Below the pieces are notes generated by a model that was not told where the DNA came from, did no database searches, and worked only from the letters and a program-made list of their open reading frames with translations. The translations under genes were made by a program, and so were the position numbers. Below, in pieces: positions 40,100-42,482 of a stretch of 52,364 nt of DNA. The stretch is from positions 1 to 52,364 of the forward strand of contig JAHBZV010000018.1 of the NCBI GenBank assembly GCA_019635275.1. The letters run 5' to 3'. Every line of letters starts with the position of its first letter. The first letter of the stretch is position 1. This stretch comes from Burkholderiaceae bacterium. Its GTDB lineage: Bacteria; Pseudomonadota; Gammaproteobacteria; Burkholderiales; Burkholderiaceae_E.

Positions 40100-40333
40100 A
40101 TGCCCACCGTCGTCAATGTTCACGAAGCCAAGACACACCTGTCGCGGCTGCTCGACCAAGCACACGCCGGCGAGGAGATCATCGTCGCGAAGGCGGGCAA
40201 GCCGTACGCGCGGCTCGTCCCGCTCGCACCGCAAGCCGACGCACGCCGACCCGGCCGGCTGCCCGGCAGGATTGGCGACGCCTTCTTCGAGCCGCTTCCG
40301 GAGGAAGAGCTTTCGGCATGGGAGGGCTCGTGA
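40100..40333 (+). CDS. Phd/YefM family antitoxin
   Basis: A 77-residue antitoxin. The N-terminal DNA-binding domain has the family pattern VNVHEAKTHLSRLLDQAHAG followed by EEIIVAKAGKPYARLVPL. The C-terminal 25 residues, acidic and proline-containing (FFEPLPEEELSAWEGS), should wrap around and block the toxin. Its stop overlaps the toxin's start codon (GTGA), the usual coupling in such pairs. It probably autoregulates through the direct repeat at 40058-40081. Confidence 0.85.
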   Translation: MPTVVNVHEAKTHLSRLLDQAHAGEEIIVAKAGKPYARLVPLAPQADARRPGRLPGRIGDAFFEPLPEEELSAWEGS

Positions 40334-40719
40334 ACGGGCTGCTGCTCGATACCCACGCCCTGCTCTGGTGGTTCACCGACGACCCGCGCCTATCGGCCAA
40401 TGCGCGCGCGGCGATCGCGGACGAACACCGACCGATCCTTGTGAGCGCAGCCAGCGCTTGGGAAATCGCGACGAAGCATCGGCTCGGAAAGCTGGAGGGC
40501 ATCCCCGAGATCCTGTCCCTGTATGGTGAACTGATCGTGGCCGACGGGTTCACCCATCTCCCGGTCAGTTGGCTGCATGGCCTGCGCGCCGGCAGCTACG
40601 CGATCGATCACCGCGACCCGTTCGACCGGATGCTGGCGGCGCAAGCCGAGATCGAGCGCCTGGTGCTGGTCACGCGGGATCCCGCATTCCGGAAGTTCGG
40701 CTGCCCGACGCTGTGGTGA
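40330..40719 (+). CDS. vapC: VapC-type PIN-domain toxin (ribonuclease)
   Basis: A 129-residue PIN-domain endoribonuclease. Metal-binding acidic residues are D7 in LLLDTHALLWW, E45 in SAASAWEIATKHRLGK, D96 in DHRDPFDRMLAAQA and probably D117 in LVTRDPAF, a complete active site. Toxins of this group cleave tRNA or rRNA and are neutralised by the upstream antitoxin. The GTG at 40330 has GGGAGG 5 nt before it and overlaps the antitoxin stop; an ATG at 40318 is an alternative start. The downstream hairpin belongs to the opposite strand. Confidence 0.87.
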   Translation: MNGLLLDTHALLWWFTDDPRLSANARAAIADEHRPILVSAASAWEIATKHRLGKLEGIPEILSLYGELIVADGFTHLPVSWLHGLRAGSYAIDHRDPFDRMLAAQAEIERLVLVTRDPAFRKFGCPTLW

Positions 40720-40742: not shown

Positions 40743-40775
40743 AAAAAAAAAAGCCCGGACGCGAAGGTCCGGGCT
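40743..40775 (-). terminator. Strong intrinsic terminator on the minus strand
   Basis: AGCCCGGAC-CTTCGC-GTCCGGGCT is a perfect 9-bp stem followed by nine unpaired T residues (40751-40743). No minus-strand protein gene ends here: the nearest minus-strand gene upstream is coq7, about 800 bp away beyond the plus-strand OsmC gene. It therefore most likely terminates the small RNA. Confidence 0.85.
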
Positions 40776-40806
40776 GAATCCACCAAAGGAGGAGGGTGGA
40801 GGAGAC
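40743..40806 (-). ncRNA. Candidate small RNA with an anti-Shine-Dalgarno-like loop
   Basis: On the minus strand a promoter (40841-40813) is followed by a predicted transcript of about 64 nt. Hairpin 1 is UCCACC (40800-40795), loop CUCCUCCUUU (40794-40785), GGUGGA (40784-40779). Hairpin 2 is the terminator. The loop contains CCUCCUUU, which equals the anti-Shine-Dalgarno core at the 3' end of betaproteobacterial 16S rRNA, and CUCCUCC occurs in it; UCUCCUCC precedes the first stem. This is the design of C-rich-loop trans-acting sRNAs that mask ribosome binding sites. No open frame is present. The promoter, loop and terminator are seen directly; being expressed and functional is inference. Confidence 0.6.
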
Positions 40807-40812
40807 GAAGCA

Positions 40813-40841
40813 AATATAGCGAAGCTGTTTGTGCAATGCAA
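40813..40841 (-). promoter_or_regulatory. Promoter of the candidate small RNA
   Basis: TTGCAT (40841-40836) and TATATT (40818-40813) lie 17 bp apart on the minus strand. The -10 matches five of six; the -35 matches only at its TTG. Transcription would start near 40806. The spacer is locally AT-rich against a GC-rich background. Confidence 0.5.
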
Positions 40842-41106
40842 GATGGGCAAAGCGCCTGCAGCGACCGGCGAGGCGCGGGCACCCGGCGAGCGCAGCAGGA
40901 AGCGATCGTAACAAACTGATTTTGTTTGCATTTTCCATGCGCCAGCCGTCGCAGGGCGGCGCGTTCCGGATTTCGAATAGACCCTCCAGTCGTCGCGCCC
41001 ACCGGCACCGCGTTGCGGCGGCGCCGCAAAACCTCCTGCCTGCGAGCGCGGCGGACGCGGCACTACAATCCATCGGCATCGGCATCGGCAGCGAAGAGGA
41101 GCGACG

Positions 41107-41529
41107 ATGGAGTGCGTGGTGAAATGGACCGGTCCCGGCGGCATGAGCTTCGTCGCCGAAACCGGAAGCGGTCACGCGGTCGTCATGGATGGCGCGCCCG
41201 ACGTCGGCGGGCGCAACGTCGGCCCGCGCCCGATGGAAATGGTGCTGCTGGGCACCGGCGGCTGCACCGCGTCCGACGTCGTGGTCATCCTGAGCAAGAG
41301 CGGCCAGGACGTGCGCGGCTGCGAGGTGCAGCTGCACGCCGAGCGCGCCGAGACAGACCCGAAGGTATTCACGCGGATCCACTTCCACTTCGTGGTGCGC
41401 GGGCGCGGCCTGAAGCCGAACGTGGTCGAACGGGCGATCAAGCTCTCGCACGACAAGTACTGCTCGGCCTCGATCATGCTCGGCAAGACGGCCGAGATGA
41501 CTCACGACTGGGAAATCGTCGAGGACTGA
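41107..41529 (+). CDS. OsmC family protein
   Basis: A 140-residue OsmC-fold protein of the YhfA type. The two redox cysteines are C53 in LLGTGGCTASDVVVIL and C119 in SHDKYCSASIML, on the helices where OsmC/Ohr peroxidases carry them. The GPRPMEMVLLG segment is typical. The role is likely reduction of organic hydroperoxides or another thiol-based detoxification, with homodimer formation; YhfA-type members are not well characterised. GAAGAGGAG precedes the ATG. A 14-bp tandem repeat begins at its 3' end. Confidence 0.85.
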   Translation: MECVVKWTGPGGMSFVAETGSGHAVVMDGAPDVGGRNVGPRPMEMVLLGTGGCTASDVVVILSKSGQDVRGCEVQLHAERAETDPKVFTRIHFHFVVRGRGLKPNVVERAIKLSHDKYCSASIMLGKTAEMTHDWEIVED

Positions 41530-41563: not shown

Positions 41564-42211
41564 CTAGATGTAGTGCGCGGTCGCAGTCATCAGCCGCGCG
41601 GTGGCGCGCATCGCCCCGCGCACCGGCGCGGGCAGTTCGGCGCCGCCCAGCCGCAGCGCGTTCTGCGCGTGGCGCACCTCGTCGTCCTTCATGGCCACGA
41701 CGATCGCCCGCGACCGCAGGTCCGAGACCGGCAGGCGCTCGAGGTGGCCGTCCAGGTGCGCCTCGACCTGCCGTTCGGTCTCGGCCATGAACCCCAGGCT
41801 CAGACGGTCTCCCGCGCGCCCGGCGACCAGCCCCAGCAGCAGGGCACCGCCATACCAGAGGGGATTGAGCAGCGAAGGCCGGGCGTCGAGCTCGCGCAGC
41901 CGCTGGCGGGTCCAGGCGAGGTGGTCGCCCTCCTCGCGGGCCGCTTCGCGGAACTCGCTGGCCAGGCGCGGATCGGAGGTGGCCGCCGCCTGCCCCTCGT
42001 ACAGCGCCTGAGCACAGATTTCGCCGACGTGGTTGACCCGCATCAGCGACGCCGACAGCCGGCGCTCGGCCGGATGGGCCGGCTCCGAGGGGTCGCCGCC
42101 GGCCACCGGCAGCGCGCGCCCGGCCGGCGTGACGCCGCTCAGGGTGGCCAGCGCCCGACAGGCGCCGGAAAGCAGCCGATCGGCGGCGTTCGGGCGGCGA
42201 AATCCATTCAT
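41564..42211 (-). CDS. coq7: 2-polyprenyl-3-methyl-6-methoxy-1,4-benzoquinone monooxygenase (Coq7)
   Basis: A 215-residue di-iron hydroxylase for the demethoxyubiquinone step of ubiquinone synthesis. The six expected iron ligands are visible in order: E64 ([14 protein letters not shown]), E94 and H97 (REEGDHLAW), E146 (MAETERQVE), E178 and H181 (DDEVRHAQ). A hydrophobic membrane-associating stretch lies near 118-132. The ATG at 42211 starts the [14 protein letters not shown] leader; the upstream frame is discarded. With ubiD at 11760-13316 it is the second ubiquinone gene in the window, but the two are not linked in an operon. Confidence 0.93.
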
Positions 42212-42482
42212 GGTGAGACGTCCTTCACGTCGGCCACCGGGCATTCGTCACGCCCCGTCCGGCCGGACCGACCGGCGGCGCCGCGCGCCGTCATCCGACT
42301 GTTGTTGACGAGCGACAGGATACCCAAAAAAACAACGGCCGACAGGTGCCCGGCTTTGCCCCCTCCCCGAATTTGGCGAGAATACGCAGGACTTCTGACC
42401 GGGGAAGGCCCACCAGCCGCTTCGGGGAGTTGCGGCGGCGTGGAGGCCGTCGATTGATTTCAGAAACCTAGGAGAACCTTCA

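Follow-up and report, generated by a model that had tools for sequence, protein, structure and literature searches.

The name of the Rfam family RF02278, "Betaproteobacteria toxic sRNA", alludes to toxicity in E. coli. Four double-hairpin RNAs of Burkholderia cenocepacia, ncS03, ncS05, ncS27 and ncS62, are expressed; ncS03, ncS05 and ncS27 go up in biofilm, under starvation and in glucose medium, growth is slower when ncS27 is over-expressed, and three of the four genes have an upstream motif in common (PMC5688073). The main text of that report leaves the motif unnamed and mentions neither PHB, phasin nor PhaR. In B. pertussis, the sRNA S17 is flanked by a glycosyltransferase gene and coq7 and has the promoter TTGCAT-17-TACTAT; it is Hfq-dependent, and RNase E shortens its 190-nt primary form to 67 nt (PMC11722255). 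According to the same report, S17 lowers translation by pairing near ribosome-binding sites, chiefly via its 5' end (Site 1): mutations in Site 1 abolish the repression of BP2158, and matching mutations restore it. Two more of the five fusions tested drop about 2-fold, the other two are unresponsive, and over-expression of S17 hardly impairs the exponential growth of E. coli. The authors postulate a repressor, which they do not name (PMC11722255). The regulator PhbF, a homologue of PhaR, is described as recognizing the motif TG[N]TGC[N]3GCAA, as seen by footprinting at the phbF promoter. In E. coli it acts as a repressor of phaP1 and phbF fusions, and it also binds to granules of PHB; the site of Ralstonia eutropha PhaR had earlier been described otherwise, as two 12-bp repeats (PMC3206438). 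PHB-related words are absent from the main texts of PMC5688073, PMC11722255 and PMC4603805, and occur in PMC7011215 solely in a reference title. Among the matches listed, in a search of freely accessible main texts, no paper was seen to connect PhaR with RF02278.

We analyzed a predicted minus-strand sRNA in the window, i.e., the whole 52,364-nt stretch of DNA under study. In contrast to the B. cenocepacia RNAs, it comes from an uncultured Burkholderiales genome and is known from sequence alone. The features of the locus are given in Table 1. A TTGCAT/TATATT pair 17 bp apart, a hairpin, a 9-bp stem and nine T residues had been described in a sequence-only reading of this region, and all were found where that reading had placed them. 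Its statement that no protein gene explains the unit also agreed with the neighbours, as the PIN-domain gene ends at 40719 and the OsmC gene starts at 41107, both on the plus strand. The Phd/YefM antitoxin and PIN-domain genes point towards the sRNA terminator, and 23 bases separate the stop codon of the PIN gene from the T run. The sequence TTGCANTGCACAA was found once in the window's genome, at the sRNA locus.

Table 1. Features of the sRNA locus and its neighbours in the window.
Feature	Position	Strand	Remark
sRNA transcript (predicted), about 64 nt	40743..40806	-	start put about 7 nt past the -10
RF02278 match	40807-40745	-	model positions 1-64 of 64
5' CU stretch TCTCCTCC	40798..40805	-	positional counterpart of S17 Site 1; within the invariant GTCTCCTCCA
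First hairpin	40779..40800	-	TCCACC 40800-40795 / GGTGGA 40784-40779; RNAfold
Loop CTCCTCCTTT of first hairpin	40794-40785	-	contains CCTCCTTT
Intrinsic terminator	40743..40775	-	9-bp stem and nine T; RNAfold, covariation
Terminator stem arms	AGCCCGGAC 40775-40767 / GTCCGGGCT 40760-40752	-	9 bp
Nine-T run	40751-40743	-	read from the sequence
-10 TATATT	40813..40818	-	17-bp spacer from TTGCAT
-35 TTGCAT	40841-40836	-	inside TTGCATTGCACAA
PhaR/PhbF-type operator (putative) TTGCATTGCACAA	40829..40841	-	matrix match 40844-40828
Phd/PIN gene pair	40100-40719	+	converging on the terminator
OsmC gene	41107-41529	+	separates the sRNA from coq7
coq7	41564..42244	-	PF03232, E 2e-42; neighbour common to S17

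The sequence-only reading had matched the RNA to no named family. This view was ruled out by a match of the window copy to RF02278, which scored 73.5 bits, the gathering score being 50 (E 4.7e-13); the published members are those of PMC5688073 and PMC11722255. The copy scores over the cut-off, has the double hairpin with a terminator and belongs to a betaproteobacterial host, and the sRNA is thus already named, as a member of RF02278. It has in common with the B. cenocepacia RNAs the full-length covariance match, the two hairpins, the unpaired CU-rich stretches, the short length and the presence in several copies, of which the window's genome holds two. Matches to RF02278 were found in 48 of the 61 genomes made up of the window's own and 60 relatives (40 over the gathering score), and in 191 of the 299 genomes of a sample of the order (119 over the gathering score), with 0/14 in the controls in either case.

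The 99 copies of the 61-genome set were divided into type A (51), A2 (7), B (18) and others (23), a division drawn up once the scores had first been inspected. An alignment was made of 43 of the 50 distinct type-A cores, seven being left out. The 5'-end sequence GTCTCCTCCA was unvaried in 43/43 aligned copies, and the terminator helix showed compensatory changes in eight of its nine pairs over these copies, with 66 two-sided cells vs. 15.3 in shuffles. Helix 1 hardly varies among type-A copies and was dropped as covariation evidence. RNAfold predicted both hairpins, at -26.1 kcal/mol and a z score of -5.6, and none of 200 shuffles was equally stable. A consensus sigma-70 scan reported no promoter at the sRNA, TTGCAT/TATATT falling under its threshold, and a terminator scan found 1 against 1.0 in shuffles; such simple consensus scans alone do not carry the claim of an sRNA. 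The sRNA goes beyond chance because of the Rfam match, the matches in 48/61 genomes and the covariation in the terminator stem, and a chance hairpin was ruled out by the Rfam match, the fold z score and this covariation. Promoter, CU-rich loop and terminator are kept together in relatives, in line with the free-standing unit proposed earlier. A terminator kept while promoter and C-rich loop were lost, which that reading had named as evidence against itself, was found in a minority only, the type-B copies: these retain both the terminator and the CU stretch at the 5' end, have short loops without CU and are mostly without such a promoter. The 16S gene of the window's genome ends GGATCACCTCCTTTC, and therefore the loop sequence CCTCCTTT equals the anti-SD core, as the reading had said. 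A 16S pattern ending in TTTCT was matched in 6 of 37 genomes, none from the window's genus; a shorter pattern was matched in four of five.

The locus resembles that of S17 in the coq7 neighbour, the TTGCAT -35, the 17-bp spacer, the nine-T terminator and the same 5' CU stretch, the promoters being compared by the published hexamers only. It differs in that the S17 primary RNA of 190 nt is cut to 67 nt, whereas the window promoter would yield an RNA of about 64 nt directly, and in that S17 adjoins coq7, whereas the OsmC gene lies between in the window. This comparison suggested that the window copy is likely an S17 orthologue. The closest named relatives of its COQ7 were those of the Burkholderiales MAGs PRO11 (84 percent) and PRO2 (87 percent). 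Among 80 named coq7 loci selected by a text filter, in 45 the sRNA followed coq7 on the same strand; the 35 loci without it include Burkholderia, Paraburkholderia and Caballeronia, whose copies sit elsewhere in the three genomes examined.

Upstream of many copies, we observed a recurring imperfect palindrome, TTGC-N3-GCA with flanks TTG/CAA. This palindrome over the -35 had been overlooked in the sequence-only reading. In the window, the site TTGCATTGCACAA has one mismatch among nine fixed positions to the PhbF motif, on the other strand, and resembles the known PhaR/PhbF targets phaP1 and phbF in having a TGC-N3-GCAA site at the promoter; the known members described in PMC3206438 differ in being PHB-metabolism genes, with no sRNA named. 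Since the site contains the -35, a bound repressor would block RNA polymerase there. The window's genome has one PHB_acc_N gene (PhaR), plus phasin, and two similar sites, TTGTTGCGACGCACCAA and TTGTTGCGATGCACAAA, lie upstream of its main phasin gene; no site was found in the locus of a second, weaker phasin-like gene (L114). The new element at this locus appears to be the promoter, with a putative PhaR operator that would offer a testable answer to what controls RF02278.

Upstream stretches of 150 nt were searched for the published motif, one mismatch being tolerated. The motif was present at 44/51 type-A copies, as compared with 3.4 in shuffles, 4 for the backwards motif and 0/51 downstream; exact matches occurred at 22/51 vs. 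0.16 in shuffles. With one mismatch allowed, the other types gave 4/7 (A2), 1/18 (B) and 3/23 (others), and the phasin upstream regions gave 30/30 (shuffles 4.5). A matrix was also built from 48 phasin sites, at least one site being present in 28 of the 30 phasin loci and at least two in 17; 10 of 92 phasin matches were under the curated cut-off and were left out. At a threshold of 8 bits, our own choice, the matrix found sites at 42/51 type-A copies (0.98 expected; downstream 1/51), 4/7 A2, 2/18 B and 3/23 others. The window site scored 17.1 bits, a value equalled in 0/100 shuffles. The test with the published motif is the cleaner one, because the matrix was seeded by inspection of the sRNAs themselves. 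A 14-point palindrome score failed to separate real from chance sites, and the matrix and the published motif, used by itself, took its place. When regulon members were sought in the window's own genome with the strict palindrome TTGNNGCNNNGCNNCAA, it gave five places (10 strand matches) vs. 50 strand matches of the reversed control and is therefore not enriched; one place lies upstream of phasin, and one, at 41013-41029 of the window, looks like a GC-rich chance match.

Sites of at least 8 bits were present at 41 of the 45 coq7-linked copies, as compared with 4/45 in the downstream control. RF02278 copies were found in 11 of 12 named genomes, and 18 of these 29 copies had such a site: P. xenovorans LB400 3/4, B. 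cenocepacia 2/5, Trinickia 2/3, Caballeronia 2/5, Pandoraea 2/4, Roseateles 2/2 and Ralstonia 1/2, together with the single copies of Variovorax, Polaromonas, Ramlibacter and Sphaerotilus, each with a site. Promoter geometry was analyzed in 179 copies, i.e., the 99 of the 61-genome set and 80 further copies, of which 101 bore a site. A -10 with at least four of six positions of TATAAT lay exactly 17 bp past the TTGCNN of the site in 48/101 site-bearing copies, and each other spacing from 8 to 29 accounted for 0 to 8 of the 101. The distance from site to RNA peaked at 20-21 nt (28/101) and ranged from 8 to 131 nt. Two operator-like sites lie upstream of the coq7-linked sRNA in L100 and L093, the second being located 17 bp before TACTAT or TACAAT. 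In L100, from a MAG labelled B. parapertussis, these are TTGTTGCGGTGCACAAA and TTCTTGCAACGCACAAA, and TACTAT stands 17 bp past the TTGCAA of the second site, as published for S17.

We then compared the distribution of the site with that of PhaR (PF07879), which was present in 203/299 genomes of the order sample. The copies scored were 128, namely, the RF02278 matches listed in the order sample minus the 61-genome set. Among these matches, the site was found in 90/101 copies of PhaR-bearing genomes, made up of 70/78 in a first set and 20/23 in a second, vs. 1/27 copies of PhaR-lacking genomes, the latter being L301 (13.0 bits). Among the same matches, the counts were 68/72 vs. 1/21 per genome, with kinship ignored; 49/50 vs. 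1/13 for genera with the site in at least half of their genomes; and 17/17 vs. 1/8 for families with any site. A Fisher test on the 105 copies scored first, among the matches listed, gave p 1.5e-16, relatedness being uncorrected. Both states occur in the genus g107, where G194 has PhaR and a site of 22.1 bits and G287 has no PhaR and a score of -6.0. The 11 of 101 copies with PhaR and without a site, among the matches listed, were L280, L282, L299, L332, L343, L349, L375, L377, L386, L387 and L394; G033 likewise has PhaR and no site. Agreement was poor in the family f43, where, among the matches listed, the site was present in 1/3 PhaR-bearing (at 129 nt) and 1/6 PhaR-lacking cases. In five RF02278-bearing genomes of the 61-genome set, PhaR was not found: the near-complete G018 and G049 are without the site, and G004 (83 percent), G024 (78 percent) and G029 (57 percent), all incomplete, have it; a PhaR gene in the missing part of these genomes may be the reason. 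The locus thus has the operator motif and the -35 overlap of a PhaR/PhbF regulon member, as well as the co-occurrence of regulator and site, with the exceptions listed. Family, fold, site, promoter geometry and this co-occurrence are direct observations on the sequences.

Taken together with the published systems, these data make it probable that the RF02278 RNA is repressed by PhaR, is freed when PHB granules titrate PhaR and restrains chosen carbon-use mRNAs. A promoter of the sigma-70 type and a terminator of its own would yield an RF02278 RNA of about 64 nt, whose unpaired 5' end and first loop, CU-rich and anti-SD, may pair at ribosome-binding sites, so that chosen mRNAs would be translated less, by analogy with S17. 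PhaR/PhbF bound to the TTGC-N3-GCA palindrome over the -35 would repress the promoter, PHB granules would free it by binding PhaR away, and the freed RNA would turn down genes of carbon uptake and catabolism, coupling storage status to carbon use. The putative PhaR site may account for the conditions under which this widespread RNA is produced; it would give RF02278 a signal, PHB granules, which fits the published rise in glucose, biofilm and starvation. By their descriptions, two other sRNAs are alike in part: Neisseria NmsR has two unpaired CU-rich stretches directed against the ribosome-binding sites of metabolic genes (PMC5688073), and Sinorhizobium MmgR is tied to the amount of PHB and the level of phasin (PMC9049629). 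MmgR acts on PHB accumulation, whereas PHB status is proposed here to act on the sRNA.

Co-occurrence cannot name the bound protein, and the palindrome might instead belong to a different regulator with similar specificity that accompanies PhaR in these genomes, in which case the RNA would be the same and its signal not PHB. Some PhaR-bearing genomes are without the site and one PhaR-lacking genome has it, as this explanation would allow, but the motif enriched at 44/51 type-A copies is the footprinted PhbF motif itself, and the same kind of site lies upstream of 30/30 phasin genes; we regard another regulator as unlikely. The palindrome might also be no more than an enlarged core promoter, inherited by the copies from an ancestor and bound by no repressor. 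The copies are related and the stretch does overlap the -35, as such a promoter would, but both halves are kept although the distance to the RNA varies from 8 to 131 nt, and the site is missing at equally conserved RNA cores in PhaR-lacking genomes (1/27 among the matches listed), which makes this highly improbable.

What the RNA does once made was put differently in the sequence-only reading, in which it competes with ribosomes generally, masking Shine-Dalgarno sites or titrating ribosomes broadly rather than acting on chosen mRNAs. The loop does equal the core of the 16S tail, and over-expression of a relative, ncS27, slows growth (PMC5688073). However, S17 pairs with chosen mRNAs, chiefly through Site 1, as the mutation and restoration experiments, the two unresponsive of five fusions and the unimpaired growth of E. 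coli indicate (PMC11722255), and type-B copies are without the CU loop, so that a general competitor seems quite improbable. The observation made in that reading is confirmed, and its interpretation is partly supported. Returning to PhaR control with action on chosen mRNAs, we also lean, with some reserve, towards a wider proposal: the RF02278 sRNAs may be the RNA arm of a PHB regulon of the betaproteobacterial order, in which free-standing copies would be repressed by PhaR and induced by PHB, many phasin 3' UTRs would carry a related anti-SD double hairpin, granule-making would release RNAs that lower carbon-use genes, and PhaR would be the repressor postulated for S17. If true, an RNA layer would be added to the carbon-storage switch of bioplastic-making bacteria.

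The 3' ends of phasin genes were examined for CTCCTCC within 150 nt past the stop codon. It was present in 17/30 phasin loci (shuffles 0.94), namely, L113 of the window's own genome and 16 more among L120-L148, and in 0/29 phaR genes and 0/30 phasin 5' regions used as controls. In most of these 17 phasin 3' ends, that of the window's genome included, the CU stretch is displayed in the loop of a hairpin, and a terminator comes next. Further, 9 of the 99 RF02278 matches start within 450 bases past a phasin-domain match, all on the same strand, and a tenth lies 2.1 kb off. All nine score low (29-38 bits, short of the gathering score), and kinship of the phasin 3' hairpins with RF02278 is therefore no more than likely.

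Fifteen copies (13/18 type B and two type A: L187, L193, L198, L209-L212, L214-L219, L221 and L222) lie 11-86 nt past the stop codon of a small protein of 70-118 aa with a DPRV-type tail. A Pfam search with three of the small proteins that precede type-B copies assigned two to no family and gave the third an E of 0.088, under the cut-off. In the family f8, genomes contain many RF02278 copies (nine in G043), some of them a few hundred bases apart. These include L194, L195 and L225 (G043), L389 and L395 (G311), and L402 and L403 (G222), and several copies of this family have an operator-like site 8-9 nt from the RNA.
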